Part shown: piece by piece, positions 1 to 49,300 of the stretch
How positions within the stretch are numbered: the stretch's first letter is position 1
Layout: every line of letters starts with the position of its first letter
Assembly: GCA_030141605.1 (NCBI GenBank)
Contig: JAQGDQ010000217.1
Coordinates: 309,383-373,382 of the forward strand
Direction of reading: 5' to 3'
From: Tubiluchus corallicola
Taxonomy: Eukaryota > Priapulida > Priapulimorpha > Priapulimorphida > Tubiluchidae
Length of the DNA: 64,000 bases
Position numbers and translations under genes: made by a program
The notes under the pieces: generated by a model
The model's database searches: none
Seen by the model: the letters and a program-made list of their open reading frames with translations, nothing else
Told to the model about the DNA's origin: nothing

Positions 1-702
1 ATGGGTCTCTGTTTTAACTATTATGATTCCTACTGAGTACCCTTTATAAAAGCAAATGCTATTTTTTGCGAACTAGAAAACAACCACAAACCATTATTTA
101 TCCAATATTAGGAAAAATTCTTCAATTTTCGTTGGCAACAATTCACGATATCGCAGAAGATGAAATCAAAGAATTGGCTGTGTTAGTTGTCATTGCAATG
201 CACGGGTGTGAATAGGCCAATAGCTAGTTTAGAAGTGTTCTAATCTCATTTGAATGTGAACTTAATTACTCCCTCTCTGAGTCTCTCCCCCCACCCCGCC
301 CCAAAGAAGTAAACAGCAAGAATCAGTAAGCTGAATGAAACCGGCCATAGACTGAGTCACAAATCGATGCACTAATTAGAATCAGCATTGCTTAACTAGT
401 TATTTTCAGTTCTACGTCTTTACAGTGTCAGTTTGGTACCAGCGTAGAGTTTAATTTGTCAGTCGAAACAGTAGTGAGCTAAAAATAAGCTAAGTAATCG
501 CTTTCTTTACCACGTTTCATTTAATACGCCACCTGCTTGCGATTCGTCTAAGTAAGCAATTAGCTTCGTAACAATTTAACATACTATTTTAGGTTTTTAT
601 CTACAACAACTTGCTGCTGAAATGGAATGGAATGGAATGGAATTATAATTAATAAGTACGTAACTTTGCAGTAATGATTATTACTATGTTTCAATATCTT
701 AC
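1..702. other. Start of the last intron of gene C
   Basis: Sequence downstream of exon 795-703. I looked for the final exon (APSAHD...FPG region) on the minus strand and did not find it. A short GGAAT run sits near 620-641. Nothing else was recognised. Confidence 0.6.
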
Positions 703-3700
703 CTATTGTTCGGCCTACCAGGTAGGCCATTTGGATCTAAGAAAGTCCTTTCTAGTGCCATCATTTGGTCATTAATTCGTCGAATGGTTAACGGGCTGCA
801 AAATGAATATTATACATTTACACACGCTAGGATTAAACTATGAAAGCAAAATTAATTGCAGAGTTAGGTGTTCTCCAATCCCAGTAGGTCTAGTGCTAAC
901 TCTTACAACAAAATACAGATTGACCTAACATTAAATAAGTAGACCTCCTACTGTTACTTCCATGATTTTTAAAGGAGTAAACTATTTTTTCGTCAATCTT
1001 TTTGATAATAATTAAAACAACCGCGGAGTAGTTAAGGCCACCTGTCCACACCGCACACAACCACATCACATCACCGGATTCTGGATCCGGAGGAGGAACC
1101 TAACTGAATTCGGATTTTGGCCGCTTTTCTTCTATCTTCAAGGAACCCTAGAACCCCAACCTAGCTCTGCACATCCTCGTTAGAGTGGAAACGAAACGAA
1201 AGCTGAGCACCTGCCGCTTAATTTCAATTCCTTTTTCTATTACGCACACACACGCACGCACGCACGCGCGCGCACACACACACACACATATATATTTTGT
1301 GTACATATATACGACCCTTTTCTGGTGGCTGATTCGATAACGTATGTTCTTCGCCAACCCTTCCCATTTGATTGGCTATAAGTGTTATTAAATTTTAACT
1401 AATGTTTTATGTAAGGGAAAACAGTAAATTATTTGATAAGCTAATTTAATATAGGTGTATGCCTAACGCAAAGCAATCATACTTATCCATGTTTATGGCC
1501 TTCATGTGTTTAGTAAATTTCTCACTGGTGCGCTTGAAATTTTTAACAGCATTTTCCATAATGACAAGCTTTTCTGTAAATAGATTATTTAAATAATTAA
1601 TTTTTATGTTTGATTACTAAACATCTAATTTCTATTAGTTTGACACAAATTGCCACCTTCTTATTACGTTTGCACTTTGCTATTTTACTAACATGTAGCA
1701 CCAGCCTTACGTAGTAAGCGTATCATGTTAAGCTAGTAAAGAGTTATAAAATATATATATGCACGAAAATCGAAAATTAAAAATGTGCTTCTTAATAAAT
1801 ATTCACCAGTATTTTTAACTGGTATTGGGAGGTGGAGGCAGATGATATAGCATTAGGCCTACTAATGTTATTATCCTGCAAGGGCTGATACGCCACCGAG
1901 ATCATTTAAATCATTATCCACCAGCAAACATTCCTGGATTGGACTATCTGTAAACTTTAAGTCTTTAAGACAAGACCGATTCATTTTGGGCAACGATGTC
2001 AGTATAACTGTAACGTGTGTAGCTAGAATAGGTTACTCATGTTTTTCTTGACACAACCTTAATTCTGTACAGTTTGTATTACCCCTTTCCGGAAAATGTA
2101 ATGCAAAATTGAGCAATTTTACCTTTTTTTATGCCATTATTTAGTAACTCTGCCTCAGCTAAATTCCTGAGATCATTGCAGGATTCCTCTAAGGTGTCAG
2201 CCAATGACATCACATCATATGGAATTATTAGCGATTCAGCTAAATCGCGCACTACTTCTACGCTGACTTGAGCTACGGCTCTGTGGTGCTGAAAAACGAA
2301 TTTTACAATAATAGCGATGAACAGGAATGCTAATAGCGTTTTCGGCAAGTACATAAGAAAGTTGGTAAAATAGTGTACAGTTAACGAAATGCCATTTACT
2401 TTTACCTCCTCTACATTGTAATGGTACAATCCATTATGAAGCCTCTGAGTGTAGACACTGAACAACACACATAAAATTGCCCACAGGCAATGGTTCATTG
2501 TTCAGTAGCAGCGCGGATCACTGCACTTGCTCCGTAGAGCAGTATGGAAGATGCAGGACAAGTTTGTTGACAGGTTTAACTTTAATTCCCACCTCGGAAT
2601 GTTTAATGGAGCAAAATTATGCCTAAGTTCCGAACAGTATAGCTGGTAAAAGGCTTACTAGAAAATTATTTGCATTATATACGCATTTTCAGAATGTTCT
2701 TGAAATCTGTTGAGCGAGCCATGCTTCACTAACGTTACAATCATTAGATAGTATCATAAATGAAAATTTCTAATAGTTTTTTTGTCTAACGTTAGTTTTA
2801 GTTTTAAAGTTAATCAATGAAACTCGTACCTTGAATGTTGGATCAATGATTTTATCCAACAAGAACGTGTTATCATGTGCAGAATGGTACAGCGGATATG
2901 GCGATAGTTGATCATATTTCTCCTTTTATTCATGAAAATAAGAAAAGAGAATCTTGCTATGGTTTTAGAGTAACAGCATACATACATTTAATAACATTTT
3001 ATTTAGTGCGAGTTATAACATTTTAAATGCAGAAGGTTTAATATATTTCACGAGTAAATTGTATAACGTCATCAGTTGTACAACGCAGATTTGCAAATTT
3101 TTGCAGATTTTTTTAAAATTCATTGTTCGTCACTTATTAAACTATTGATTGAACTATGAAAATTATTAATTATATAAAGCTTTCTTACAACTGATAATAA
3201 TTGGAAATTTCTGACAAAAAGTGTTTTTTAATAAGTTTGCCTTGTTGACATCATTTTCACAATGACAACAAAAATTTACAGTATAAAATTCTCCCAGTGT
3301 GTCCAGAAAAGTACACGACCGTTGCCTATATTAGCAAGTATGTCTTTTATTAAAAATGACAAAAATCTTCAAGCTGCACAATTGACGTCTAGCATAATGT
3401 CAATCATTTTCGTTGACTGGCCAATGAGCGTGCAAGTTATTTCACACCCCTGCAGAGCTTAATTAACGCAGGTACGTTCGGGACATTCAACTACAGCTCC
3501 GTCTAATACTGTTATGAAAAATGCTCAACTTTTCATTAGCTAGCAGGAGAAATATTGGCCTGCTTCTAGATTTTATTATTGTTAATTGAAATTGCAAGTG
3601 AACTAGTGGAAATATATAGCTTTGTTTCGTTTATAAGGTAGAAATGCACAACGCTTACGTCTATGAGTTGCTGCTTAAATCATTTTGCAATCAAGAAAAT

Positions 3701-6700
3701 ACGCAGTTTAGTTCAGCTTATGGCTTTGCAAGTTAGATAGCTACACTTATTTGATTAACTTTAAATAAGGACGAAACAAAATGTTTTCTGGTCTGGCTAA
3801 TTTTATAAAACTTAATGAGATCTTCACAGTCAAAACTAATTCAAATGCCGTCAAAACTTATATTATATATCAATGTAATATTGGTTAATTTTACGCTATT
3901 TTTCTTGTTATAAAATCATGCTTAAAATATGCCATTGCGAGTTACGTAACTCGGGCATTCAATATAAGGGTTGTCTATTGGAATGGAACAAGGACATTTA
4001 TTTCATGTCCGTGCCTAACAAACGGAAAAATACAAAAACTGGATAAATCTTGCAGACGAGCACATGATCAGTTAGATATAGAAAAAATACATCGCAGGCA
4101 AAAAGTTCATACGCTCAAAAACTTGAGACACGTAATATTTCTGTTACTCATTTATTTTAAAGCAAGGCTAACTGGCTTAGTTTCTTTATTATACTTAAGT
4201 CTCTGCATTTTGTTGAAATTGCAAACTCATTTTTTGGCTACTTGAAGTGTTAATCTCGTGTAAAAACAACTGATGCTCTGCAAATTTGTGTTTATGAAAA
4301 AGTGCTATCAGTTTATCTGCTGATTAGACATTAGTTGTGACTGTCGTGCTGTTTCGTTTACTAAAGACAGTTGTTATCCAGCTGAGCGCTGTCCCGAATG
4401 CCGCTGAGTGCGTTTACGTCGCAGAGGAGGCGGAGCGATAGACCAATAATCTTGACGTCAACTGCATGGCCGAGTGGGGAATATTCCTGAAGCATCTATA
4501 ATACCACATAGAAGGGCACTTTAAATATTAGCCAGATCTTTTGAATCTAAACCTCATTTGTTTTTCAACTAAGCTCACTTTGATTGTTTGTGATGCTCCT
4601 TTGTAATTCTTCACCGAATTTACTGCAACAAAATGCACAAACTTGAACGTTTAACAGAACAAAAGTTTATCGTAGCTGCAAAGTGCGGTGCAGTTTATTA
4701 TTGAATCAGTCCATTATTGAACTGATTATGCAGATATTTGAGCACTAGACGTTTGGGCCACAGACGTTTAGGCTCTGGATATTTGGTGCCGGGCCACTGA
4801 AATTTGGGTCAGAGCATTTTGATCTCAGACATTTAGGCTCTGCACCTTTGGACCACAGACATCTCTATATAGGTACGTAGATAGCTAAGTAGATAGAGAG
4901 GTAGGTAGCTATGTAGACCGATAGATAAATAGGTAGGTATGTAAGTAGGCAGGTAGTGCTAGTGTGAAAATTTTCTGTAGCACTTGACTCCTTAAAATAT
5001 TCACTACCATAATGTCGCTGTCTTTACAATGACCCAACTGTCCACAGCCTCCATTGTGCACTATTAAATTGCTACTGTCTAAGTGTCCAGCGCCCAAGCG
5101 ACCTAGAACCTACGCTGTAAGTGGAACTGAGTGGCAAAAACTAAATCACAAGCAGAAGATTCTGCTATAGTATTCGAACAACTCGCGTACCCACAGCAAT
5201 TAGCCAAATTTTCTGTTTGGGCGGGTGACCTTAAGCTCACAACTTAAGGCCAAATGTCGTTAAGAGGTTACATTGGTCCTTACCCAGACTGTATACCCTG
5301 TAAGTTTCTTGACTCTAGTTTGCACTCTAGTTTATTGAGTCGGCCTCATTTTCGGACAATTGAAGCCTTACTAGTTACGGGACCTCTCCGGTCGACTTCA
5401 ACTAGGATTTCTATCACAACATCAATTACCCTTGCAGAATCGTAAATTAAAATAAAAAAATTTTGACACTTCGATGAATAAGAAGATTCTAATATTAAAG
5501 TTTTTACGTTCTACACTTCCTGGTGACTTTGCACAAGTGTGATGCACCACTGCAACACATGCTTTGACTTTGACACCTGTAGCCGATTCCAAAACACTCC
5601 GTTTTGCTTTACCATAAAACAAATTTGGTGGCTGTGCGCTTTCCTATTCATATGTTGCACATAGTCACGAAAAGATGCACTCAACCTAGAACTTTCACCT
5701 GAAGTCAATGATAAAAAATGTCTGGTCCCAAAAATCCAGGCCCAAATATTAGCACCTAAGTGTCCTAAAATCATCACTATGTATGTTTTATATTTGATGC
5801 ACTCATAAACGAGTAAATATAAAAACTATTTTCAACAAGACACTAGATGCCATTTGATTGGAATTTGCAGGTAAATTCAGAAGCGATTATTTTCAGGCAA
5901 TAAATTGATAAAATTAATGCTAATACACTTTATATCAATAAAATTTGAAATTTTTTTATATTTATTAGTACACCGATTATGAATTGATGATGCAAGTTGT
6001 TACTTGTAAAATGTTTTGGCGGTTTTCCAACAACATGTTATTATTTACTATTTATTTGAATATAACATACAATTTATTTTTAGTAGATAAATATTTATAA
6101 AACTTACGTAATTCACTTACATGATCGAAAGTATAACTTATGTCTATGCATGGCACTCCAGCTATATAAGCAAAAGCTGCATAATCACTGCTTGCTCCCA
6201 AATCTTTTATCCTAAAAGCATTTAATGTCATAAATAATTCAAGAATCAAAGTAACTTACTCGAGTAGAACATCTTCTTGTAAGCAATGCAGTAGCCCTCT
6301 TTTCAAGACCTGTTTATCTAACTGGAGCAATTTTTCACTGATTTCTTTTTATACAAGAGGAACTGATAGCATTTTCTAAGACAGCAGAAACGGGTTGTTA
6401 TTTAGCTAGTTAAATTTCATTTGTGTTCGCGAGTACATTTCGTATACTAATGCTACGTATATTACGTATGATTCAAAGCGTTGGTAATGGCGTTTTTTAT
6501 AAAAAGGTTAGAATTTTGATTCTACCCATTGATGAATTCTAAGTAACTCGGTTGGAAATCATCCAGGCTGAATTGTCAACTGAGGATTTCTCTTTCTCCG
6601 ACCATGCCAAATATACTGATCTTCTGTACGTTGAATAAAACCGGTGCTCATAATTATATTAGCGCCGTAAACTTTCTTGCCACCACCAGAACGCTGCTTG

Positions 6701-9700
6701 TTACTGCTTTCACTACTGCCTCTGCTGTAGCAACACAGTGACAGCATTGGGGGCACCAGTCTACTGCTGCTGTTATCAACGAGAAATGATGCAGCAACTG
6801 TTACTGTTATTAGTGTAGCCCCAGTTGTAGCATGTTTTACTGCAATAGACCTATAAAACAAAAGACGTCGTGCAACAGCAGCACCACAATAAGCATCAGT
6901 GGCGACAGTGATGATGACGATAAAAAGATAACAAAGATAGCAAACAATAGCAGTAATCAGCAGCTGAAACTGCAACCGTATTTACTTTGGTTTTGTCTTG
7001 CCTAAGCCGGCATCACTGTCCTTAGGGGTAGCATGAAGCCATTGCTTGTAAATGGTTGTGGCTTTCTTGTTTATCCGGGTTTCTTCTGGTTGAGGTACCT
7101 GTAACGAAGTGTATGAAGTTATCATTAAGATAATACTTTTTCTAGCCCAGACCACAGTTACTTACAACACAAAATGCCTATATAGGTATATCCTAGAAGA
7201 CGAAACTCATGAGCGGAAACTGGACGGCGGGTAAGCGAAGGAAACAGCGGTTTGCACATGTTACCCCAACAGTCAAGTGGCATTAAAGTTAAAAGTTTTA
7301 CCTTCTTTGTTGCTTTGTGTAACACGTTGTGCAGCGATGGAAATGCACCGGCCTGAAGCGAGTAATTACCTGTAAAAACAGACGAATTTAAAAAAACTTT
7401 CAAGAAAAAAGTCTCTTGGAATGTAACAAAACTTGGTATCTGGACATTTTGGATTTTTTAGCCATTTTTACAGGCAATCTTCACTAGAATCCCTTATTCC
7501 AAGATTGTAACCCCTTTATACAAGGATGCAAGTCCAATAGAAAACTTTAAATCAGAGTACAGTCCTAAGCCAAGCCTCCCATGACAGACTACGAAGATTT
7601 CGCTAAGGTGTGGACCAAGAGATGACCCCATAGCTACCCAATCAAATTGCAGGTAGAAATGTACCAGATGACTGTGGCCACTGGGGGTAAAGAACTACAC
7701 ACGGTTAGAAAATGAAAATACGAATACAGACCCAGAAAACTATAACTCTCATAAATAATTTGACAGCAGTTATCGACTGATGCTCTGCTTAGAGTAACTA
7801 GTTGTTAAACAACAAATGCATAATCATTTTAATACAGTATGCCTATCAAACAGTTTAAGAATTGTATAAAACACATTGCCTGTTTATATTAATTATTAAT
7901 TAACTGTTATTATTTTATAAAACCTTTTCAAAAATTGTTTCACCTTCGACTGCAATATCCATGTTTATGTAAGCCACCGCTCGATGATAGAGAGTTTTCC
8001 AATGATCCTGCACAAAATTCAGTTTATATGATTCATTTAAAACTACAGTGTATTATTAAAGCTAAAAATAGTCGATTTAACATTAAATTAATCGATCTAA
8101 CAGTCAAGTTAGTTCATCCTCTATTGGTTAAAAAAAAGAAAACAGTTCAAAACACATCACCTCCACCCATTCATAGGATCCTATAGTTCCATGTTCTTTG
8201 GCTCCCCAGCTGCAGAACAAGATAGTCCTGCGGGGTCTCCAGCCTTTTCTTACCATCTTACCCAGTACACGAACAATTTCAAGCAGTACTGCTGTACCAC
8301 TGCATGGATCAACGGCACCAAATACCCAAGCATCGTAGTGATTGCCAACAAGGACATAACGATCTAGTAAAAGAAACTGACGATGTTATTTACAGAAGTT
8401 AATTAGTCCTTGACTAATCAGCCAAAAGTACAGTAAAGTTCTGGTAGGCACAAGGGGTGGCAGGGACCGGGATTGTTATGATTCCGACCCCCGAACCACG
8501 GGATCTTTCTTCAAATCACGATCCCCGTTCCCGAACATCCAATCCCCCCGCGAACTCCGTTCCCGATCTTCTTATCCCGTTTCGATCCCGAGCTCGAGTG
8601 ATACGAAGAAAAGTGAGCTGCTTGATAAGTTATTCATAGCTTAAATTTCATGACAACGTACTACTGCATTGGGCTATTTTTAAAATCTCTTGTAAATAGT
8701 TTTAGGTAAACGCATGATTAGCTTGTTGCGGCTCATACAGTGTGCATTCGTTGCTCTGTGACCGTGACATTCTGCTGGGGTGTATTTGTAATGGTGAAAC
8801 AATTTAGGAAGAATCTTTTGTGTTATTTTTGTCTCACAATACTGCTATTAATATCTTTTTCATCTAAGTATCGTCCAAATAGATACTGGGCGCTTTTTAC
8901 CGCACTAGTCCATATACCGAATAGTGAGGTCCTATACCGCGCCATGTACTTGGGCTGGCCCAAATAGCCTGCACGGTATACGGGCTGCCGAAATATCGCA
9001 ACAGAAACTGAGCTGAGTTTACCTTAGCAGCAGCATTCGTTCTCCTTTATTTAATAATGATAATGACGACGACGACGAAAACAACAATTTAAAATATCAA
9101 TATAAATTAAATAGTTAACTACTTATAATATAATTCTATTATAAAGTATACATTCGATAAAATGAATTATTATTAATTTATTAAGCAATTTGGATGAGCA
9201 ATATTAAATTTAGTTTCGACAGCTAATCTTTTTGGTCAGATTTTTATGCACCTCTAACATAGCGTTAAAGTACGCCACTTTTGTTTTTCCTTGCTTCATA
9301 TTAAAGTATGTCATTTTTGGTTTGCCTCGTTTTATATAGGGTACATAGATGCAGGTGATCTGTTTCACTACCTAGCTTTTCGTCACTATTTTTAAATGTG
9401 GTGTACGGGATGACAGCATACTGTAACTCATGGGTTAGTCTGACGAACCATTGCCGTCATACTTCGAACCATTGCTGTGTACTGCGGGGTAAGTGAACAA
9501 TTTACTTCGCAAGTTTTGCAATATTTGGCTAATGCTGCTAAGATGACACTTCTTCCTCTCAAAAAAAGAATTATATCGCAGTTATCAACAGAGAAAATCC
9601 GTAATTTTAGCTATAATTTTCTTATCCCCATTTATTCATGTATTTGTGGTTCGTGGTTCATCAAATGACGGATGAATTTTTATAATTTTACAAGACCGAA

Positions 9701-12700
9701 ACAAAAAGAATGTGAAAAAGTCGGAACTTTGCCGGGATTGGAATCCTTGAATTATACATCCAGTGTTTGACCACTGAACCAAAACTGATATTAATATAGT
9801 GCCCTCAATTGTACTAATTGATCAAGAGGTCTCTGATCTACGTCCAGACTCAGTTTCGCCTTTCTCATATTATGTCAAGGGTAGAGTGCTGCACTTAGAA
9901 TCACAGGTATAAAAGTGTTAACACCACGATTAAAGCGCATCTGAATTGATCAAACTACCGACTGACTATAGACTGGCCGTTGTTTAATTTAGTCGCGAAG
10001 CACAAGCCATAACAACCCAGCTATTCTTCAACTCTAAAATAATCATTGTCATATAGGTAATCGGAATAACGTCGGTAATACATTGTTAAAGGTTGTCAAA
10101 GTGAGCAATTTTAGTTACATACTTACTATTTCATATTTACTAATGCAATCGAACAGACACAAAATATTTTACCAAACAGTTACAATTTTAACAATGAAAT
10201 GTTACAACACATATACAATACAGAATTTTTTGTGTAGGTATGTATAATTGTACGTGCCAACGTCACAAAAATACCTACTTGAACATTTTTTGCGAGCAAC
10301 AGTATTAAACAGAACAGTCTTGACCAGTTATGCTCACCTGGCTCTAAGGCTCCTTTAATGGCACCGATTACGTTGTAAGTTTCCTTTATTTCCTTATTAT
10401 TGCCAACAATTAAATGAACTATCCTAAAATGAGAAGCTTAGTCAATAAACAGCAACATGGAGAACAGTCTGAACTTAGCCTTTTGTGCAGTATCGTCACT
10501 CAAAAGAAAAGGCGAAACTCTAAAAAGTTAGGCTAATTTTAGTGTTTGGGAAAAATGTTATAAAGTTTCAACAACGAAAATATGATACGCTTTTTGTAAT
10601 TAGTAAAAATCTATATTCATAAATAAGTCTCGCACCAAGCTGCTATTAGTGTCATAGGATTAAGTTAACCAAATTAATATTAATGTCGCATCTAGTGCCA
10701 CAGAATTAAGTTAAACCAAATTAACATTAATGCCGCATAAATAGAGGTGGTTGCTATATTGTGTAATGTTATATTGTATATAATCAAATGAGACGAATAA
10801 ATTTAAAACTAGTAATCTAACATATTGCCTGGCAGTGAATTTCCCAGCGAGTGGTTTAAGTTTTCCATTTCTTTTGCAGTTTTATTCAGTCAGAAGCAAC
10901 ATACTAGTGAACCTTGAAGAAACACGAAATTTGTATTTTTTCTTTACCAGTCGCTTACCACTGCGCATTTGGATCGTAGATCTTGTAAGTGAAGTTCATG
11001 GCTCCATTCCACTCTGGTGGAGCGTCGTTTGTGCCGTTCATTCGCCTACAGAACATACTTTTATACTTACAAAGCATGTTATAACCTTCGGGAATTTCAT
11101 TTGTTGATGATGACGTCAGAGCTTAACAAAACCGATTTTGCCGTTGATAGTAACTAGTGTAGTTCTTAAGTCAAAGAAACGAAAAAATTATTTAGCTGGC
11201 ATTTTAGCTGTGCACGAAGATTGAAGAACCCCGACAGACTTTAAGCAAAACCGGACTCAATTTTAAACTGCAGGTCAAAACAATCTACTCTTTAAAATAT
11301 TGAGAGGAAACATACTACTTTTTCCAAAATGACTTACGTGAAAGAATTATTACTACACAAACACAATTTCGCGTTCGAGCCACTAATTCTTCGCTGTTAC
11401 AGGCATTTCGCCATTCACTAGTTAGACGGGCACCAGCGCCAGCATTTCAGAAACGCATTGCGTAAAAAACAGGTGCTGAACCTCTCAGTTCAGATGTGTT
11501 AGTTTGTGACGTAATGCATGCGTTCCACAGCTCATGCGTGGCACAGCCGTAAATTTGAAATTTTATCTCAAAACTTGCCTAGTTTTAGTACAACATACTG
11601 AATATCTTACAGTAGTGTTCTTCAATTTTCGCTTTCACAAACACGTACAACACGCTCGTGGAGTATTTTTGCTGTTGAAAATTATGTTCGTTTGTGTGAT
11701 GTTATCAATAGTTGAGTTCGCCCGCCGTTAATGAAGCTTTTAGTCTATTATTTAATTAGCAGAAACGCGTTTGCAGTATTAATTATGTTAAAATGTATAC
11801 GTTTTATCGGACTTGAGAATGGGGTAGTATATGAAAAACCATACTGTCTTCCTTAACCATTACCACTGAAAAAATTATGGTTATTACTTTTTTAAGTTTA
11901 CGTCAGCTATTTTATAAACTGATGCATTTTTGTACCAACAGGTGTACTTCTAATTTTCAATTAAATTTTTCAGTCGGTTCGTACGCGTCACATTCAATAT
12001 AAAAAATCAAAGAGTTACATCTAAGTTGCCAAATCTTATGTCATTCATCAATCCACTATGGACGCTATTCGCCACTGTACTGTCCACCAGTTATACTACC
12101 CTAGCCAGTCAATATCAACTAAATACACCTTCCACTTAGACAGGCCATTTGGGTACGGCTGCTTGAGAGCGGCCATTTTGGGCGAAAGATACTGGGGCGC
12201 GAGACATTTCTGCGCCACCCGCGCATACTGAGCTGTTACCTTTCGACCCTATCACACAAGAATGCATGTGTCACGCAGCCTAGTAGGCTAAACTTTTATG
12301 GGCATCCTCGTGACCTCGTCTAATGTATAGTTAATAATTACCATGTAACTTTTAAAACATCTATAGTTCATGTAAGAAAAGAAATAATTATTTTAGTATG
12401 TCCAATCGCTCAGTTAACTAGAAACAACTGTCTCACTTCGTGTGTGAAAAAACAACGCTGTTGCTGGACGCATAATAATACTTGTGTCATGCATTTCGCT
12501 AGAGATACGGCAAAAAATGCAGTTATTGATAATTGTAAAATTGTTTTAATAATTAAATTAATAATTAAATATCTGGCTCATTAATCGGAGCTGGTCATTT
12601 TCGTGTTGGTAGCTGTTTTTGTGACGCACTAGAGTTTTTTTGAAATAAAATGATGTCGTACGTATTTTAATAGAATGCTAATCTAAAGGTTGCTGTGTCT

Positions 12701-15700
12701 GCTCCTACTTCGTTTACTCTATAAACAGCACATTAATATTGAAGTGAAAAGCTAGAAAATGCTAATTAAAGTCAAATGTTAGAGTCATATTAAAGTCAAA
12801 TTAAAGCCTTTCACAGTTTCGTTTTGCGCACGCGCAGTTACTATAGGTCAAAGGTTAAGTGTAACACAGCAACGGGTTTCAACTACAACAAGTCACGTGA
12901 CATTGTTTGTAAAACAAAGCCCTCTGCCGCACCAGTTCAGTAACTTCAATTGTTTTACGTTGAGTTTTACTAGCAGGATCTTGCTTGGGAACAAGAAAAA
13001 ATGAACAAGATAAAGTTCTAGTCAGCTGTTAAAACTGTTATTATTACAATAGCATGGCGTGCGAGGCGTTGTCAAGTGTTCACAAATACGTTGTCTGGTA
13101 CACTTAACCTTCGACCTTTTCACGACCATCAGCAATCGCTGGAATTGTTTTATGACATATAATTATATGTTATGGCATAATTATGTTAAATTTAGTTATG
13201 CAATCTTAAAAATTATTGAGAGTTAGGAAAATCATTAATAGTTCGTAAAGAAAAATAAGAAAGTAGAAACAACATTAAATTTTATTGGTACCCAAATGTC
13301 TCCTGCCAAAGTTTCCCTTGTCGAAATGTCCCAAGTGTCTCACACCCAAATGCCCGGCCCATATGGTCGTGCCCAAGTGTCACACACGTCGATTATTCCA
13401 GAGCGTATATATTCTACTACGACATAATAATCCTTGTAACTTTTTCCAAAAAATTCTGTATAACTCACGATAAAAGCTTATAGGCGTCTTTGTATCCTAT
13501 TGGATGAACGGGTATTTTGGGCATTTCTATGTCTCCTATGTCCAGCCTATGTGCTGCATCTACAAAAAATCGACCCGTTGTTGACCATTGACATTAAAGT
13601 TTGGCTTATATGTAAGATGTGAGGAAGCCAGCAAGCAAAATAAGATTAATTTAGACAAATAAGTTAAAAATATTGATTTATGGAGAGTATAGCTGATGAT
13701 GTTCTGAATATATTCTCTCATTTACGCTGTGATGACGATGTCTGATTTGGTTCTTACGTTCGTAATACTCACCGTTAGCTGGATATCCAGGTGTTAATGG
13801 ATCTCCCGAACCACCTGAAAAAGTTAAAATTTTGAATGCAAGCATCTTGCAGACTCTGATATCGTTGTTCACTCATTTATTTTGCTGTTTAATTTTGTTA
13901 GAAGGTTATTCGTGCTTTCTTAGGTGCTTTCTCTAAGGAAAAACTTGATAAAAGTGAATACCTACACACACACACACTTACTATGGTTAACTGGGTTTTT
14001 CAACTGAAATACCTATGTGAAAAGTTTATAACAGTTTATAACATATAAGTTAAGGCATTTGTAACACATATGAAACCTAAGTTGCAGGTTAAGATATTGT
14101 GAAAATAAACATGCAATTGCATAATGTAAAATTTAATATAGATCAAATACCGATTGTTAGGTCTACTCACGGAAAACTGAACCACGTTGCACAGCTACGT
14201 CTGGCATCCACCATGTATCTGGGAAAACTCCGATATTTGGGTCTCTGTCAGTAGAATCAGCTGGATCTGAATAAAGAATCACTCCTAGAGCACCATAACG
14301 TTCAGCGAATTCCACCTATGGATACTGTAACTTCAGTTTCAGAACGGTACTTGTGCTCCGTTTGTTAGGGGCTATATATTGGTACTGCTGAGTTATATTT
14401 ACAATGTATAATAAATATATGATGTATGATGTATGATATTGGGACAGTATATCGAAATCTGAAGTACCAGATTTAATACTAGTATAAATTGGAATTAATG
14501 GACGTACAGTTGGGACGTCATTCACATTAGACATTATATCATCTTCGGACGACGAAATGTTTATTTTATTTATTTGTAACGAACTAATGTGCTATTTCAA
14601 TTACTGGACGACTAATTTATCTATTTGATTTGGCAGGCATATTGAGTGATGATACAATGAAGCGTTCTTTGAAGATAGATCGTAAATTTTGTATGACTTT
14701 ACTAAAAATAATTTAGTGTAAAACTTCCTGCTTGCGTTAACAGTTTCACAAGAGTTTCTGGCTTGGGTGTAAGAGAAATTTTGTAGTGCCGATGTTTTCT
14801 AAATGCCTTAAGCCGTTCAGAAAATTTGCTTCGCACTTAGACCCAAGAACTTGACTGATTATGTAACTCTTGTCAACACAGGTCGGTGAAACACTGAGAT
14901 TAAAAGGCGACGAATAAGTGGTCAAAAATTTAAGCCGAAAGAATATCATAGACAAAATTTTCTCTTAGAAATTTTCTTCTCAAAAGTCTGCTGCTGTAAC
15001 TGAATTGCATTTATTGACTAATATAATTTTAGCTGACAATTGCTTTTACCAGTATTTTACATGTATTTTTTTAAATGAACATTATTCTGATTAGAATTGA
15101 TTGCAAAGTACCTAAGTGTATTGACGAATGCTAACTCTAATCGAGAGGTCCTCAAGTTTTTTGCCTTTCGCGCTCGTTTCACCATATGTGTGAATGCATC
15201 CACTTTCCAAGTCAGGCTGATTTTTTTTGTACATTGCTCGTGCACCCTTCTATTCAGAATGCCATCCCCTCCCAAGGTTGTCTGGTTACACTTGAGTGCA
15301 TTCTAGTTCGATTATTTTTAGAAGCGATATTTGCAAATTTATCAGTAGCGGAAAATATTGATAAAATTTAAATATATTTAATTTTTATAAATGTTAATCT
15401 GTGCTATTCAATTGTGTGATTTTCTGTAAATTAATTATGCACAATTGCACATTTGTTGTTTGGAGAAAGATCAGCATTTCAATCTGTGATCAATTGCGAT
15501 TTCCCCTTGCAAATCCAAAATTCTTCCCAAAGGAATCCCCCTGCTTGACAACCCTGCTCTAACAGATAGAGCGTGCTCACATAGGACACGAAACTCGGAC
15601 GTTCTGGCCATCACAGAAAAATACACTGTTTTGTATAGGCGTCTTCGATTTGGCCGTTTTACTGCGGAGATTGTGGCAGAATGCCGAGTGCCGAACTCTA

Positions 15701-17294
15701 ACGTCCAGAATATTCGACTGCTTTCTTTAATTTTAGAACATGTCAAGTAAACACTTCAGTTCAAGATTACAGTATTTGTACGCACTTTATTTTTGCCTCT
15801 CTCGTTGTTTGCAGAAATTAAGTCTTTACGTTTAGCACTATTGTTTTTTACATGGTCAAGTAGTTCTGCAATGATATTGCTTATGTACATAACCACAAAA
15901 CAACGGTGTTCTGACGTTGAATTCTGCGCAAGTAGCAGAGGAGTGGATTTGTCAGGATTTCCGAAGACTTTTATACAAAATATAGTTTGCCGACGTTTTG
16001 CATATGTTCATATGCTAACCATAATGGTGGTGCAATATAAAGCAAACAGAGGTCATTATGTGCAGACGTTTAACTGAGAGATAATTTTTTAGGTAGCCCA
16101 TGTAATTGTACATGTAAATTAAACGTAAAATCACGATGAAACTAGAAAGTCAAAGAAAAAAATGACGTGCCTTGTCTCCTTGATAGATTTTCCCGTATCT
16201 GGCTATGACGATAGTTCCATTGACTTTGTAGCCATTTTTGGCGAGGTACTCAAAGTCCTCAAGTCTGCCATAGTTCACATAGACAAGCTCTGCCTACATA
16301 TAATATTTCAAGAAAGAAGAGAAATTATTATTGTAGGTTAGCTCTTTAAGCGACATCGAGAGTTTTAAATAGTTAGCTTATGCCTTATAGAATAATTACG
16401 TTCAGCAAATGAATACTGGGGAGTTAAGTTCTGTTGTTTTCGACGCTAAGATTGTTTGACCATATGGATATTTTGGCAAGACACGCAGAGACATACGATC
16501 ATTAGGATTCTGAGTGTGGTGAAGTAAACACATGACTGTTGAAATTTGGATACATGTGGATTGGGAGCAAGCAAAAAGCGTAAGTAAATTTTATTGTACA
16601 CAAAAAACTTGGACATACTGGACCTGCCTCGTGTCCAAAAGCGTGCGAAAAGTGTGCGAACGCCAAAATATTTTCATTAAACTCACCTTTGGATCACCTG
16701 ATGTGGAGTAAGCATTAAATGGTGGCACGACGTTGGCAAAACTCTGCTGTGCTGTAAGAGGAGGTTCTTCCACTTGTGAAGAAAATAGTTCGTCGTTTGT
16801 TAGCTTATCAAGTATTCTTACCTAGTACAGAAAACGCAAAACAAGTATTCATTTTTACATGCAATATGAATTATTATTATTCAACTTATTATTATTATTA
16901 ATGAATTATTATTGAGTAAATTTACGTCTAGCTGATAACAGAGAGAAGAAGGTCCGATTTGTCTAAATTTATGTTTATGCAGAGCCTACATTTGTAAGCT
17001 TAAGGATAAATTTCGGACAAATTGACTGTGGACTAGCTGCTACATTTAAATTTTTCATTGTATAGGCTAACCTGGTATACATACCCTATTACGATTATCC
17101 AGTTTTGTTTCTGGATAGCTTAGAAGAACATTGTATGGTGTCAATTTCACCCAATCCAGTCCACTAGCACGCCACATTAAGGCTATTCGTTCAGCAAGTG
17201 TCTTGTCTTGAGGCGTTCCAGCTAGATGAGGTTTAGACGCCATCAGTCTGGCAACAGTTAATGTGTAAGTGTATCAAAATTACTAACAAGAACA

Positions 17295-17340
<46 letters not shown>

Positions 17341-17795
17341 TCTTTTGTTTTTTAGCCGCATTTTCTTTATTTTTCACTAATGTTCTGAAGGTAGTTCACA
17401 ATGGCGGACAGAAGCGTCCAGCTTTTTCATTTTTTAATGTGCGATGTTCTATTTATCGTTCCAGTTGTTGTAAAAATTATCTGCATGTTCATATATTAAG
17501 AAGATTTTGAAATGAAAGATCTACGTCGTTGAGATAATTATTTATAATTTTCTGCTTACCTCAAATATCCTCTAATGCTTTCTTTGTTGATAGCTTCAAT
17601 AAACGTACTAGATTTCCATATGGTATCATCGGTTAAAGCCATAGAAATAATTCGATTTCGTCCCTTGTCACCTTCTCCAGCAGGAAGCTTTTTGCTAAAA
17701 TATCCGATGATGACACCAGTTATCAGACATATCACTCCTGCGCACACCCCAGCGGTGATAAGATCTGATCTTGAATACATCTTTATTGGAGCCAT
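703..17795 (-). CDS. GCPII-like M28B metallopeptidase, gene C (catalytic Glu replaced by Lys; last exon outside window)
   Basis: Family of type II membrane zinc carboxypeptidases/aminopeptidases (FOLH1/NAALAD2/NAALADL1). Exons, 5' to 3': 17795-17560, 17247-17085, 16821-16687, 16293-16171, 14315-14171, 13814-13773, 13559-13469, 11045-10959, 10423-10338, 8363-8161, 8007-7944, 7369-7302, 7098-6986, 6211-6121, 2922-2830, 2288-2123, 1573-1483, 795-703: 2090 coding bases, 696 codons, no stop or frameshift. The start gives a short tail and one hydrophobic segment (about residues 12-34); Met6 (17780) is an alternative. A PA domain follows (about 170-270), then the split peptidase core and the start of the helical dimerisation domain. 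Zinc ligands are present: H378, D388, E426, D454, H562. The catalytic base (human E424) is K425, codon AAA at 8197-8199, in the motif [10 protein letters not shown]; genes A and B read AEEFGL there. Intron 4 has a GC donor. The last exon, about 208 bases in A and B, is not found in 1-702. I infer a zinc-binding pseudoenzyme; an unusual active enzyme is the alternative. Confidence 0.9.
1242..1295. repeat. CA/CG dinucleotide microsatellite with TA tail
   Basis: Mixed (CA)n, (CGCA)n and (CG)n run ending in TATATA, in a gene C intron. Confidence 0.9.
4741..4955. repeat. Cryptic repeat of CAGACrTTTrGGC-type units followed by GTAG/GATA run
   Basis: From 4745 to 4865 short words such as CACAGACGTTTAGGCTCTG recur every 20-25 bases with many changes. 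From 4866 to 4955 a degenerate GTAG/GATA tetranucleotide run follows. Both lie in the 3.2-kb gene C intron 2923-6120, which otherwise shows nothing recognisable. Confidence 0.6.
8450..8600. repeat. C-rich degenerate repeat in gene C intron
   Basis: GATCCCGTTCCCGA-like words recur with much higher G+C than the surrounding DNA. The plus-strand open frame here is repetitive and not a gene. Confidence 0.5.
9691..9790 (-). mobile_element. tRNA-derived SINE copy 1
   Basis: On the minus strand there is a tRNA-like A box (TGGTTCAGTGG) and a B box (GATTCCAATCC), then a tail with CGACTTTTTCACATT that matches the copy at 39365. The cloverleaf cannot close, so it is not a working tRNA gene. It lies in a gene C intron. 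Confidence 0.6.
10647..10738. repeat. 44-45 bp tandem duplication
   Basis: Units 10647-10691 and 10693-10738 share ATTAAGTTAA and CATTAATG-type words with a few differences. In a gene C intron. Confidence 0.75.
12808..13158 (-). mobile_element. Non-autonomous inverted-end element (MITE-like), copy in gene C intron
   Basis: This stretch is the reverse complement of 52935-53287 over most of its length. Its two ends carry degenerate inverted repeats: AGGTCAAAGGTTAAGTGTA near 12845 and its partner AGGTCGAAGGTTAAGTGTA read on the minus strand near 13118. There is no coding capacity. No clear target duplication was found, so the family is not assigned. Confidence 0.7.
13282..13388. repeat. Cryptic repeat of CCCAAATGTC-type units
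   Basis: Words such as CCCAAATGTC, AAATGTCCC, CCCAAGTGTC and CCCAAATGCCC recur about every 12 bases. The complement resembles the array at 4745-4865. Confidence 0.6.
16169..16170 (-). other. GC donor, gene C intron 4 (PA domain)
   Basis: AAG/GCACGT at the same codon boundary as the GC donor in gene B intron 4, so the GC dinucleotide predates the B/C duplication. Confidence 0.8.
17298..17335. repeat. (TA)n microsatellite
   Basis: About 18 uninterrupted TA units in gene C intron 1. Confidence 0.95.
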
Positions 17796-19443: not shown

Positions 19444-33097
<13,654 letters not shown>

Positions 33098-37039: not shown

Positions 37040-37092
37040 TAAATAAATGAATAAATAAAAATAAATAAAAAAATAAAATAAAATAATAATAA

Positions 37093-40319: not shown

Positions 40320-43300
40320 ATGTCACTGGGTGGAAAATCCGGCGTGATTATTGCTGTCGTCGTTGGGTTCACTTGCGTTGTCGTTGGTGTTCTAATTGGT
40401 TATTTTTCACGTAAACCCGATGCTACTGACCCAGCTTACCTGGCTGCAGTTGCTGAAGCAAACACTGATTTATCACAAAAGCTGATAGATGAAGTAGATA
40501 AAGAAAATATCAGGTTGAACCATAGGTGAGCTTAAACTTGCAGGATAGGTAACTGTATTTTCGCGTTTAATAATATGCCCAGGTGAGAGAAACAGAATAA
40601 CAATCATGGCTGTTTTATTTGTTCACTTTTTTAATTGCTTTGTTTCAATTGTGTTCATGCTTCAGTTTTATTCATTCATGTACAAAAATCAGTTTAGTCG
40701 CATGATTATAGAACGTTTTACCAAATTTCATCACTCACAATTTATAGTACTATTCAGAGTCTGCCCAGTGTTTTTTTAAGATACTATACACTTAGTGTAC
40801 TACTTTTGTTTATTTTATGGTGTGTCATCGAAAGCAAAATATATACCAAGGGTGAAAAAGTATTATGTTACCTGTGTTATCAATGCTAAAATCGGATTCT
40901 AACAACTAACAGCAAAAATATGTTGCTGCCTTTATTTAACGTTTTTTGTTGTAATACGTGATTCTGGTCTATTTGTATTTTTTACCTATGGTGTTCATTA
41001 CAGGCCTGTATAATGACTGCACATGCCTAATAACTAACAAGTAGCAGTCTGCTAATTAGCTTAAAAGTTATGACACTATGTACAATGCTAGAACTCATCA
41101 AGACGATTAATTTTGGATATGGGGTCAGTCAAAAGTCCTCAAATATAGTTGCCATTTTCAAGATGGCTGTAGCTAGCATATTAAGGTCTCATTTTTGCTG
41201 AGAGTATATAAGATTTTGATTTTGGTGTACAAGTGTAATTTTTAAGATTGAGGAATACACTTCTGATACTTAAAATGGCATATTAAAATAAGAACACATA
41301 TGGCAGTTCTTATTTAGGATTTAAGATGGTTGCCAAGATATCTGTAGCCTTTTATGTAATATATTAGCTATAATGTACGTTTTACCGGAGATAGGACGAT
41401 GATTTAATGTCTAAATATAGGTTTTCAGATTACGGATTTAAGATAGTAAGCCTATTATTATTCATAGCCGTAACAGTATCAACAATATCACATGCAACAA
41501 CGTAGGGTCTGATAAAGAAGGCAGCAAAAAAAACATACGGTTCAAATCAGAATTTAAAGTCCTGATTTTTCATTCACAATATTACACCACATTTGCATGG
41601 AGCTGTACAAAAAACACTTGCTTGGACATATATACATCTGCCAAAGAACCCTTTGGTTGTCTGTTCAACAACAATTTTTGTAAGTACTGACATGCTTTAA
41701 ATCTTAATTGCAAAGTGGGTCCCATGTCACGTCAGTGAACTTCTACCAGTTCAAGTCAAATGATAAAGTGATGACAAAGTTGAGACTGTTATAAATGCCT
41801 GGCCTAACAGTATCTTCCCTGATGCATCTAACACATATTTGGTGTGCTCCAACAGTGCGGCTAACTGATATTGAAGGAATTGCCTTCATTGACCTTCTTC
41901 TTGTGAATAACTCTTTACCTGCTTTACTTGTCAAATTACATTAATGTGCTAGCTTTGTCATAAAGGAGTGTAATAAAATGTTCATGCACTGGCAGCTGCT
42001 CAGCTCTAGTAGTAAATATACAATATGCTCTTGTTACTGCCTTAAATGCCATGTGAGCCAAACCATCATTTTCTCATCTCTTTAATTGTTGGAGTCTGGC
42101 TTGGAATGCTGATAGAGTTGATGTTTCAGAGCCCGTAGCATTTACAATTTCATGTGACCTAAGATAGGCCTTTATAAGCTAGCGACAGCCATTCTTCTGG
42201 CTTTCTTGAATATGGTGACCATATTAGCACTCCCCTAAATCCTTGACTTTAAAGACTATATATATATATAAAATGCTTAAATTTTATATGCATGTATATA
42301 GATGTATATCTATATATATATATATAATGTATGTGTGTGTGTGTGTATGCGTATGCGTGTGTGTAGTAAATAGATATTAAACTCATTATCCTATTTGTCT
42401 TAGATCAGCCATCTTGAAAACTTAACTGAGGTAATGTTATAAATGTCATAAGTGTTTTAAGCATCAAATATGGATTCCTTGACTTTGAAGACGTATATTT
42501 AGGCATCGTCATCTAAGCTAAGATAGATGAACTAAAAACTAGCAACAGCCACCTTGTTAGCCATCTTGAACTGGTGATCATATTAGATGATTTTTGATTA
42601 GCCTCATGTGCAGAGTTTTGTAACTTTTAGGCGAAAGGAGAAAATTCTTCACCATTCTGTTACTCTACGTTGGGATTACAGTCGTCCTTTTTGTTTTTTT
42701 GCTTATTGGATTGTTCAAAGCGTTTTGTTTCCTTTTAGGGGTATAGTAGATTTAGATTTAGATTTAGATTCGCGAATTGATTAAAACAACTGTTTTTTGT
42801 TTTTATAATAATAGATCTTTAGGAGAAATAGCTAGTATAAATGTGTGATCTGCTTAATTTCTTTTTTATGTGGCATCCATTTTTGAAATAAATGTAGCAG
42901 AAGCGGATTCCTTAGGTCAGACATCTCTGTAATAGATATATTAATCACCTCTTAATTTTAATTTTATGTTTTTTTTCTGATTTATATTTTTTGTGCAAAA
43001 AATTAGTGGCCATTAGTACTTTTTAGTCATTTCAAAAGCAAGCTTTGCAATAACTCGATGATAATCTATTTGTACATTGTGTCACATTCACATCATTTTG
43101 CCTTTAGATTTTCTGTTAATTTCGTTTTACAAATAAGCACATTTTATGAAGGGTCACCAGCATGGCAAGCAAGCAAGAGACATTTAACATGATGATAATT
43201 ATTGCAGTACCAGGTGCCTGGTAATTAAATTTGTAACAGTAGCATAAGAGAATTAAACTTTGTGCATATAGTGTAGTTGTAGTTGTTTATGTACATTGGG

Positions 43301-46300
43301 AGTTAAAGGAAGTGTGAATTTTTTCGTATAATTTTCGTTGCCAGATGGCAGCACTTTGCAGCAGTTAGCTTAAAGAGTTCAATATGCGCACAACAGTTGG
43401 GCGTATTTATAACCTGTACTCCACAATAATTAAAAAGATTGCGCAAAAGCTTTTCCATGCGGTAAAAAAAGTTTAGTTATCGTAAATTCTGAAAAACGCT
43501 TATCATGGTAAAGTAAACTTTCAACAGACTGATTTGTGAACAAAAATTGGTGTCCTCCTGCAGCACTTATATTGTTTTATACGCTAGTACAAAGACATAC
43601 ATACCTCATCAAGACGGAATAGTAATTTTGTTGTATTGTTATTTCCAGTTATTCAATTATTTTAACAATGGGTAAACATAATAACGACCTATTTTTGTAT
43701 GCTAACTCCAGCTGAACTAATAGTGAACTTATAGAAACTGCTCGTTTCTTGCTTCTATAAATGATGGGAAATAATGGTCTTACAAATAACTTTTTTACTG
43801 TTTCGTGTACGTCAGATTGCTTTCATCTGTCAGAGATGTTGATGATCTCTATATAGGTCTGTGTTTTTGTATTCTGAAATGCTATAAATGTGTAAACGTT
43901 TTGACAGTAATCTGGGCATGTACAAGCTTATGTATACCATATTCATTTCACAATAATTGTTACCAGCTTGGTAAGATGTACTTGTCATGTAGCGACTAAG
44001 CATAATATGTGTAAACAAAACCCACATAGCACAGCTGGTCACCATTGCATAATAATACTTATATTCGAAATGAGTGAAGTTTTCAGAATAAGAGAAGTTT
44101 TTTAAAAGTTGTATACCAGATAACTTTAAACTATAATTTTTACAATAAAAAATACATTTATATACATATACATATACATTTATAAAAAAACTTTGTACAT
44201 TATGTTACAGACTTATGGCTTCTGAACCGCATATGGCTGGGACAGAGCAGGATAAAGTTCTGGCAGAGAAGATCAGGCAGACATGGCTTCTACAAGGTCT
44301 GGACTGGGTAAAATTTACTCCCTACACAGTCATGCTGAATTATCCTGATGCCAGCAAACCTAAAAATCAGGTAAATCTGGCATGTCAGACTATTTGATAA
44401 GGTATAGCAGTAAATTTCTAATAAAGTGCATCAGAAAGTGCAAAATGCATCTGTGGGGTTGCATGTGATCTAGCCTTCTTAAGATGCATGGAATATTACA
44501 TGTGAAAAAACAGTGAGCAAGCTGTCGGGTGGATTATGGATGTGTGAAAGAGAGATGAATGAATAAATGTCAAAAAAGTGAATGAGTAAGTTTCCATGAT
44601 AATCTAATACATGACAGTTAATGGTAATTGGTGAAATGTCAAGATATCGTGCAACAATTAGTACAAAATTTACTATAGATATGAGCTTTAATAATTCAAT
44701 ATTTGCACTTTTTTAGATTCAGGTAATACGCAGGAGCACAGGTGAAGTTCTTTATGAAACACAGACTGATGAGCCACCGCTGCCGTCAGATGCAGATGTG
44801 TCCAGAGTAGTACCTCCTTTCAATGCTTATTCAGCATCCCAGTCACAGGTATATTCAGTTTTTTTAATTTAAGCAGATTCTTAGGATTAAAAAAATTATG
44901 AAAAAATTGTGTTTTATTGTTCTTCTCAGAAAAATATAAGCCCATTTTTTTGTACAAGCAAAAGCAAAGCTTAACAGAAGTTTTAAATTGTAAATGATTA
45001 AATTTGTGAACAAAGAATTGTGTTTGTCTCCACATGACTGAACATAAGTGCTTCCCTCAGTCAAGTTTTTGCCATTCAATTTTTGCCTTTCAATTTTGGC
45101 CATTCTTGTTTGTAAACATTTGCAGCTTGACTTGAACATCTGTAACAATTATTTTTACCATTTCATTTAATGTTATTATGCTAAACTTCTTGCCAGCAAT
45201 TTTCTTGAGCTTATGAAGTTTTACATAATTGCTGCATGATCAATTTGACTTTAATTTGCCTGTCTGTTAAGGCTTTTTAAGTACAAAATGCTTATTATTT
45301 AACTCATTAAGTAATAAATAATAAATAAATTGATAAATTGCAAAATTCATCATTATAATTACAACAAATTTTACATCATTATGTAATAGTTTTTGCCATC
45401 ATTATGTAACAGAAATGATGCCTTTTGCAGCAAACTAATACAGGGTTGGTCGTGGTCTGTGGATGGGCCTAGTCACCATCCGAGTTAGCTCTAATTATTT
45501 GACTCGATCTGATTGTGGCTGATCTGTCTGTTGTGGTTGTTAGAGGTGTTTGAAGCTATGGTGTGGGTATCGAGATCTAGCATGGATATGTATGTACATA
45601 AATGCCTTTTACTTCAATTATTATTAGACCCAATTTGTAAAACTGTAGCTTGCTTTTTCAGGATGATGCAAACTTTGAAGTTGTTTACGCCAACTATGGC
45701 CGAGTTGAAGATTTCGAACATCTTGCTACAATACGTGGTCTGAACTTGGTGAACAAGGTCTTCCTGATCCGGTATGGTCACATTTTTAGAGGTTCCAAGG
45801 TACGAGAAGCTATGAAAGTAGGTGGAAAGGGTGTGATATTTTATTCTGATCCAGCTGATTATGCACAAGATGGTCCAGAAAGTGTCTACCCTAACACGTG
45901 GTGGATGCCGGATGTAGGAGTTCAGCGTGGAACACTGAGTAAGTTTTCTTTAATATGCAATACGTTGTGTGTTACTGTGTCTTAATAAAGTGCATGTTTT
46001 GAAAGCATTGTGCAGTTTGTACTTTTATTTTTCTCTTATTCAGCTATTGTATAGTATTAAATTTTTACTGAGGAAACATTTTGTAACAAGTGAACCAGGT
46101 GGTAGAACAGACAAGATCTTTTTCTTACAATAAAATATGGATTTACACCGAATTGAATAGCAATAGTGAATTCAAAATTTCAGTTTGTTCACACTGAGAC
46201 AGTTTGCTCATTTAGCTAATTTAATGACATAACTTATTTTAGCCATGTTACATAACTTTTATAATTTTATAATACCAAGCACAGTAATGTGTGTACCCTG

Positions 46301-49300
46301 GATATTTTTGCAAAAATGTTGATATACATTAATCTTTCAATCATTATTAATCTAATATATGAGCTTCATCGGCTAGGTAAGAAGATATGACCTCCAAACT
46401 AGAGTTATTGTCACAAGTGTTATTGTTACAAGAAAAATTGTAATGTTTTATGATAGCCCCTTTCTGCTAGGGTTCACTTGTAATTACTGTTAAACTATTT
46501 AAACAAAAGTACGTCCATTATTGCATATGGCTTGCAGCTATGTTGAGTAAGTAAAAGTTGCTAAAGCTAACACTACTACTAATTAGTTAAAGTAGAAACT
46601 ATTTTTCTGAAAGTTCTAAAGCGGTTTTTCACGCTTTTTTAGATTTGGGTGGTGATTATCTTACACCAGGCTACCCATCAAACGGTTTGTATAATTCTGT
46701 GTTTTTACAATACTTTTTGAACTTTAAAGTTAATTAATGTTTTATAGCAAAACAAATGTTTTGCAGTTTAAATCTTTCTATGGAGTTAAGAATTATTAAA
46801 TTTCATCATAGTGGGTGTTTGGAATATTGCATTGACATTACATAATACATATGCACAAGCTCGCAATATCATCATATGCAATTGTCAAACTAAAGTGGTA
46901 CTGTTTAATGGCTATTACCAGATATCCAGAAATACATTACATTAAATAATAGGAATGGCTGCAAAAAAATAACTCAATAATGCAGGTCTGATAAAAAGGT
47001 GCATTGAAAACAATATACTGTAAAGTGATGTCGCATAACACCTTCGGGACACCTGGTAGACTCTGTTTTTGTCTTTGCAGTCATATGTAAACACTATGAG
47101 GTGTCAATATGCAACATACCTTATACCTGCAATATACAAACATTAGGTGTCAGTCTGATAGGACAAAGTATTAGTTGCATCTGCCAACAGTGCAATAAAC
47201 ATATTTGACAAGATAAATATTGACTGCTAAAAGGCAATTAGGCTTGCCTGAAGAGGAGAACTTTTTTGGAACTTCCTCACATATATGAATATATATAGCC
47301 TGCATCTGCTGAATTGTAAGTTTGTATGCAAGGTATTGCAAAATTGTGAGCATGCAGAGCTTGTTTAAAATTTTTGTATCACTTACTTTTATAGTTTAGC
47401 TGTATCTCCTGCTACAGTGCGATTTCAAAATTTCACAAATTCATCAGCAATGTCTATATAGATTTAGGTCAGGTGTGTGTCTAAATCTGTTCAAATGAAA
47501 ATGCATACATTATCATCCATTATAAATGCTATAATTTTTTATGTAAGCATTATGCTTCTTTGTTTTTGTGTACACAGATGCAGGGTTTCGTATTGACGTG
47601 GACAAAGCGAACATGCCAAATATTCCAGTGCATCCTATTAGTTACAGAGATGCTTACAATATTTTAAGGTGTGCATTACACTCGTTATAAACGAAAAGTA
47701 CTTATAATCTACAATCATCTCTAAAAAAATTAAAGAAAAGTTTTCTTGATCATATTTAGGCCATGTCTGTTATCTATTGGCCTTCAGTGTCATTTTTCCT
47801 CAATTTAAGTTTAAGTCAGTTTTGTTTAGAGTAACTTTGAGATTTATCACGAACAAAATCATAGGTCATCCCGACAGTATATCCAGAAAAGGGATTAACA
47901 AGCAGAAACTCCAATGGCAATGGTGAGCATAGTTGGAGAATCCAAATCAGCTTAATATGAGAAATTCGAATGAGCCATCACATGCTGAAACCCAACACAG
48001 AGAAAAAAGTTTTATCGCTTCACCTTAGGGCAGATCCAGAATTGAAATAATTGCGCTAAAGTGTCAGGTTTTGTGACCTACGAAATATAACGTGCAGATA
48101 CTAGATGATTTTGGGTTTGCAAGGAAGGCCTTCAGTGACCTTGGGGCAAAGGCCAAATGTGGGAATCCTAGAACTTGCCAAAAGTGGCAAAAAATCAGCA
48201 TTTACTGGACAAAATTTATATTGAAAACCTTTTACTATTTTTAGCAGGAGGCACCCTAGATAATTATTGCTTTTTGCGTGCATATGATCTTATGTCAAAT
48301 GTCACAATGCCATGTTTGTGGCTTAAAATCTCTGTGGCTAAAACGTATTTGTATTTCATTCCTCTGCTAGTATTGTTTTAACTCTAAACATTGCAGTTTT
48401 GTTGAAAATCGATAATATTTCGGATATGTGGGGCTATTTAGGAGTGTAGATGGTTAGAGGTATTTATAAAAGTAATCACCTTGTAGCTGGCTTTTCCTTT
48501 TCACCAAAAAGCTGTAAATTGTCCTCCAAGAAAATCACCAAGTGCTACTAGGACATTTTTGCTACATTATGCTGTTCTAGCAATTAGCAAAAAAGGTTAT
48601 TTTTATAGTTGTTTCACCTCACCTAGCATTCCTAGAGAAGTACCGTGTAGGAAAAATGCATAGCAGCACTTGGTAGGGACTTGAAGGAAATTTATAGTTC
48701 CTTGGAAGAGGAAGAGGAGGAGAAACCTGGCTATACACTGATGTGCATATATTTTACAAATGTTTTAATCAGAATCAAGGATTACGAGTTAATTTGGGAA
48801 AAACAGTTGTTTGTGGATTACCATGTATAACGATATGTTTTAAGAGAGTACACTTGTGGACCCACCTTTATGTGCTCTGTTAATAAGCAGATTAAAATTC
48901 CGTTGTTACTTAAGGCCTAATTAAAATGATTTTTTATAATCTTTTATAATAGTTTAATTGGTGGCAGTGTTGATGTGCCAACTGAATGGCAAGGAGGCAT
49001 GAACTTCACCTACAAGATTCACAATGAAGCTTCTGATATGTGAGCACATTTGTTTCAATTCAGCTAACAAACAAAAAATTTGGCATTATCAATTATGACA
49101 ATACTGATTCTGTGTGATACATGCTGTTGTGTGTGACAGTTCTTTGTAGAATGTGCAATGCTTTGCAGAGCTTTATTGCCACTTGTGGCTGATGACTTCT
49201 GAAGCTGTTTTTGTATCATTGGCCCTATCACTTTAGCATCTTGTTTCATTTCTTACTTATCCACAATGCAAACAAGATAAGATAATGTGCAGAAAATATG

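Follow-up and report, generated by a model that had tools for sequence, protein, structure and literature searches.

A GCPII-like gene with lysine at the catalytic glutamate position and a complete zinc shell: a probable retained pseudoenzyme

The locus and its three GCPII-like genes

The window, that is, the whole stretch of 64,000 nucleotides that was analysed, is eukaryotic DNA of 32-37% GC and carries three GCPII-like genes, named A, B and C, the shared exons of which were located by six-frame self-comparison, with splice sites fitted by dinucleotide and phase. Gene A (40320..57771, plus strand; 18 exons, 756 aa) is the more distant paralogue, and gene B (19444..33088, minus strand; 19 exons, 758 aa) is the sister of C; the catalytic Glu is present in both. 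Gene C (703..17795, minus strand) comprises exons 1-18 of an expected 19, with 696 codons, and is incomplete at the left window edge; B and C are arranged in tandem, both on the minus strand.

No stop was found in the 696 codons of C exons 1-18, the end phases of which equal those of B exons 1-18. The preliminary description had reported an uninterrupted frame and conserved phases in 18 exons, as was indeed observed, but had omitted two features of the gene model. Exon 19, the exon encoding the end of the dimer domain in A and B, was sought by translation and tblastn in window positions 1-702 and was not found there, and the donor of C intron 4 is a weak GC site (AAG/GCACGT), with one mismatch to its counterpart in B (AAG/GCAAGT). 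Exon 19 of C may sit further left, past the window edge; introns of this gene reach 3198 nt.

All three genes matched the Pfam families PA, M28 and TFR_dimer above cut-off. The three domains followed in that order in C (37.5, 77.0 and 46.1 bits, respectively, each above the Pfam cut-off), the TFR_dimer match being partial because exon 19 lies outside the window, and an N-terminal hydrophobic segment, a predicted membrane segment of type II, was detected (Kyte-Doolittle 19-residue maximum of 2.56, from residue 12).

Several other features of the window were recorded. GC instead of GT follows five exon ends (30518, 29768 and 24717 in B, 16171 in C and 57164 in A), with conserved phases; GC-AG introns are present in A, B and C, three of the five in B. 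The counterparts of B and C exons 4 and 5 are fused into one exon in gene A (45662-45938), a difference that reflects either intron loss in A or gain in B and C. A 213-nt repeat with 96% identity (24095-24307 and 24912-25124) flanks B exons 12 and 13, representing either a recent local duplication or a mobile element, and related sequences of about 350 nt in opposite orientation, probably a dispersed repeat, occur in an intron of C (12809-13156) and an intron of A (52937-53284). Runs of trinucleotides (AAT, ATG, ATA, ATT) lie at 19842-20073, 37054-37238 and 59129-59214, the longest being of 41.7 copies for ATG and 62.7 copies for AAT. An exon-like open frame on the minus strand (62652-63056), 135 codons long and with a high content of Pro, Gln and Tyr, had no Pfam match; among the 40 frames listed, none of the 10 open frames of at least 75 aa outside A, B and C matched Pfam at E 0.01, and neither Rfam nor ARAGORN gave a match anywhere in the window.

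The active site of gene C

Exon 10 of C (8161..8363, minus strand, 203 nt), bounded by an acceptor AG and a donor GT exactly where the preliminary description had placed it, encodes H377, D387, E425 and the motif AKEHGTIG; its B counterpart spans 25834-25632. The Lys that had been reported in place of the catalytic Glu was confirmed: codon AAA (8197..8199, minus strand) stands where GAA is found in A (50248-50250) and B (25670-25668), and the motif reads AEEFGLLG in B and AEEFGLMG in A. In phmmer alignments the C Lys was paired with the first Glu of AEEFG in GCPII, GCPIII and NAALADL1, and Glu424 was present in A, B, human GCPII, GCPIII, NAALADL1 and six bacterial relatives. The GCPII numbering was anchored on Lys699, at the position that we take this residue to occupy; with this anchor, the positions of the zinc ligands named in the literature were occupied by H, D, E, D and H in each of the five sequences. 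Two further substitutions lie within the motif, F426H (8191..8193, minus strand), at a position occupied by Pro in 6/6 bacterial relatives, and L428T (8185..8187, minus strand), where Leu was found in 10/10 relatives. Since each of them requires two base changes with respect to B, a single base error is an unlikely source of AKEHGTIG.

It is very improbable that the Lys is absent from the working protein, either as an assembly or allelic difference or through A-to-I editing of AAA, read as GAA. The codon is one base from GAA, and editing of its first A would yield Glu; even so, R210Q, F426H, L428T and G518S would remain. No long inverted repeat over the exon was found in 7300-9800, the sole pair being at 9088-9145. 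The base preceding the AAA codon is C, and a C before an A is a poor context for A-to-I editing.

The claimed retention of the second Glu and the other four zinc ligands held for all five positions, on the minus strand in every case: H377 (8338..8340), D387 (8308..8310), E425 (8194..8196, GAA), D453 (7957..7959, exon 11) and H553, the last encoded together with Y552 (2884..2889, exon 15).

Changes at conserved columns were counted in an alignment of A, B, C, two human enzymes (GCPII and GCPIII) and six bacterial relatives, up to residue 685; the relatives sampled are few, and among them the six bacterial loci are close to each other. C altered 6/114 columns invariant in its ten relatives (N69S, R210Q, R363K, E424K, L428T and G518S), whereas B altered 0/108 (C versus B, p = 0.029), and A altered 16/124, with 0/6 on the active-site list. 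Four of the six C changes (R210Q, E424K, L428T and G518S) are in or beside the active site, L428, which we take to be a pocket residue, being absent from the tested list. R210Q (16180..16182, minus strand, exon 4) removes the S1' carboxylate anchor, an Arg in 10/10 aligned relatives, NAALADL1 not being among them. G518S is accompanied by S517A (6190..6195 for the pair, minus strand, exon 14), the latter also seen in NAALADL1 and 4/6 bacteria, and R536S (6136..6138, minus strand, exon 14) is non-diagnostic, with Ala in NAALADL1 and Gly in the six bacteria in the joint alignment.

The active-site list was compiled, after E424K was known, from the accessible portions of PMC8538779, PMC12207593 and PMC10794815. 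Changes in C affected 3/9 listed columns versus 3/105 elsewhere (p = 0.006), and 2/8 versus 3/105 when E424 was left out (p = 0.04). Using columns conserved in four references, C changed 16/195, with 4/10 in the active site versus 12/185 in others (p = 0.0048, R536S included; p = 0.11 without E424 and R536). This larger count was set aside as a diagnostic measure, as S517A, F521Y, R536S and F426H fall at positions that are variable in proteins keeping Glu424, and S517A, F521Y and the loss of Arg536 were rejected as signs of inactivity, given that they also occur in NAALADL1-type proteins; for this reason, only R210Q, E424K, L428T and G518S were kept as diagnostic. Among the four-reference columns, zinc ligands were changed in 0/5 cases versus 4/5 of the other active-site columns (two-sided p = 0.048, R536S among the four). 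That the five ligands stayed while 4/5 of the other columns changed points to a continuing need for the metal site, in folding or in binding.

Other substrate-contacting positions differ in the group as a whole. A, B and C all lack Arg534, and the Lys699 column is occupied by Thr in A (57564-57771) and by Ala in B (19651-19444), the Lys699-Tyr700 pair being Thr-Tyr in A and Ala-Tyr in B and, in C, encoded by exon 19, beyond the window. Because Arg534 is missing and Thr or Ala stands at the Lys699 column in A and B, the A/B/C group probably does not share the preference of human GCPII for a C-terminal glutamate. B would itself be an active enzyme.

Descent and selection

In a tree of A, B, C, human GCPII, GCPIII and the six bacterial relatives, B and C were joined with a support of 1.000 and A was placed beside them (0.999). 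C gave similarity scores of 551 bits with GCPIII, 528 with GCPII and 171 with TfR1. Judged from its sequence, C is a member of the GCPII-like family by descent and architecture. Relatives were searched for among viral contigs, where none were found, and among genome contigs, where the six bacterial loci were recovered. B and C share 74% amino acid identity; gene conversion between them was rejected, as dS was at least 0.39 in 17/18 exons where it was computable.

The selection tests compare the paralogues A, B and C, not orthologues. A pairwise codon model for B and C gave a dS of 0.83 and an omega of 0.197, omega = 1 being worse by 99.5 lnL units. In a three-sequence fit with A as the third member and one dS for B and C, an assumption that is reasonable for neighbouring duplicates, omega was 0.157 for B and 0.231 for C (difference, p = 0.07). 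A dN/dS near 1, set beforehand in the preliminary description as the outcome that would speak against its reading, was rejected for C under equal dS (2dlnL = 124.6), as was omega_C = 0.5 (2dlnL = 32.5). Without the equal-dS constraint, omega_C was 0.203 and the rejection of omega_C = 1 was marginal, at a cost of 2.5 lnL units (2dlnL about 5), because A is saturated at synonymous sites (dS 42) and synonymous change can shift from C to B. Overall, C was not significantly faster than B (47 versus 32 changed sites, p = 0.11).

In neutral simulations of C, the probability of no stop was 0.44 for a drift of 0.01 substitutions per site and 0.053 for one of 0.036; once splice hits and indels, at an assumed rate of 0.1 per substitution, were included, the values fell to 0.045 and 0.00001, respectively. 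From these values a prolonged decay of C is unlikely. A gene that died recently, after long selection, with the active-site changes as the first signs of decay and exon 19 maybe gone, is improbable as well. The absence of exon 19 from positions 1-702, the weak donor of intron 4 and the larger number of altered invariant columns in C than in B would all be accommodated by such a death, whereas the 696 codons without stop or frameshift, the splice dinucleotides kept throughout and the five unchanged zinc ligands argue against it; even the drift of 0.01 per site leaves an open frame with the modest probabilities given above, and the two base changes required by each of F426H and L428T are unlikely in a short neutral period.

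A putative pseudoenzyme and its relation to known systems

Taken together, the observations indicate that C is probably a pseudoenzyme within the GCPII (M28B) family, specific to its lineage and retained there, in which the zinc shell is kept. Of the features tested for an active M28B peptidase, C lacks two, Glu424 (Lys) and Arg210 (Gln); the catalytic residue is lost while the domain sequence is kept, and purifying selection was detected, with an omega_C of 0.23 under equal dS and marginal support without this constraint. The zinc-binding pseudoenzyme proposed in the preliminary description is thus favoured in part, by the lost base, the kept ligands, the intact and constrained frame and the further losses at invariant active-site columns, and this reading covers 18/19 expected exons; binding, dimerisation or signalling, as suggested there, would be possible roles.

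The protein encoded by C would fold as a GCPII-like type II membrane dimer and would bind zinc or, failing that, preserve the fold of the site. It would be unable to activate the bridging water, because Lys is no acceptor for the proton and carries a charge that works against the metal site; together, Lys424 and Gln210 would result in poor water activation and a poor hold on the C-terminal carboxylate. Most tentatively, C might be kept for binding, with a ligand or peptide occupying the altered pocket or with B as its partner in a heterodimer.

According to the available text of PMC8538779, Glu424 of GCPII accepts a proton of the bridging hydroxide, which it hands on to the leaving nitrogen. 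The earlier statement that an E424 mutant is inactive applies to E424A, in which activity was abolished, but not in full to E424Q, in which Vmax was 8-fold lower, with about 1/8 kept (PMC8538779, same portion). Some turnover by C is therefore possible, and C could still be an enzyme with an altered pocket, a weaker or different proton acceptor (e.g., His426 or water) and another substrate, although we regard this as unlikely. In its favour, none of the zinc ligands has been lost, nor has the oxyanion Tyr552, a new His lies at 426 beside Lys424, and the residues at 534 and at the Lys699 column suggest that the substrates of the group differ from those of GCPII anyway. In contrast, Glu424 was found in 10/10 aligned relatives and in NAALADL1, and is reported in the C. 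elegans and trematode proteins in the passages available from PMC10794815 and PMC9768917; a positive charge beside two zinc ions would be unfavourable, and Arg210 is lost as well.

Among known systems, human GCPIII and GCPII, M28B di-zinc carboxypeptidases with about 42% identity to C, share with it the PA-M28-TFR_dimer order, the N-terminal hydrophobic segment and the five zinc ligands, and are distinguished by Glu424, Arg210, Leu428 and Gly518, which in C are Lys, Gln, Thr and Ser, respectively, and by Arg534, missing in A, B and C. Human NAALADL1 (4twe), described as an aminopeptidase in the accessible part of PMC10794815, resembles C in the GA.SDY motif, the Asp at the 534 column, a small residue at 536 and a very similar exon 10, but keeps the Glu pair of AEEFG and Gly518. 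The C. elegans and trematode GCP2 orthologues are invertebrate M28B members with altered S1 and S1' pockets that differ from C in the retained Glu424, as far as the available text indicates (PMC10794815, PMC9768917). The wild-type Fasciola protein is described as having no activity in the assays tried, despite its Glu424, so that a negative assay alone would not prove that C is a pseudoenzyme.

C is much less similar to transferrin receptor 1 than to GCPIII, and its identification as a transferrin receptor was rejected by sequence (171 versus 551 bits). TfR1 has lost zinc ligands, which C has not. The comparison with this receptor drawn in the preliminary description was retained as a precedent for a non-enzymatic member of the same superfamily, transferrin receptors being named as its non-enzymatic members in the part of PMC10794815 available, and is otherwise an analogy, C being nearer to GCPIII and GCPII. 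The available text of PMC11094094 states that TfR orthologues occur in vertebrates only. It is conceivable, as a tentative extension, that a receptor or sensor arose independently from a GCPII-type peptidase in an animal lineage, with the catalytic and carboxylate-binding positions changed and the full di-zinc shell kept; zinc would then serve ligand binding, not hydrolysis, and B would be the enzyme and possibly the dimer partner.

On the sequence evidence, C is notable in that four features coincide next to a sister gene with the catalytic residue: the metal shell is complete, the base is lost, the carboxylate anchor is lost as well, and the frame is intact and constrained. No reports on E424K, or on a natural E424K-like member of the GCPII family, were found in the literature searched, which covered few subscription journals. 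Inactivated protease homologues are common in genomes, as illustrated by the 91 non-peptidase homologues described beside 232 putative proteases in Aspergillus niger in the accessible portion of PMC7804941. If the reading of C as a pseudoenzyme is true, it would be a second independent loss of the base, with every ligand kept, which would allow the part played by zinc (fold, ligand site) to be told apart from that of the base; it would provide a natural E424-type variant for study alongside its sister gene B, and it would serve as a warning for annotation, in that conserved zinc ligands do not amount to an active enzyme.
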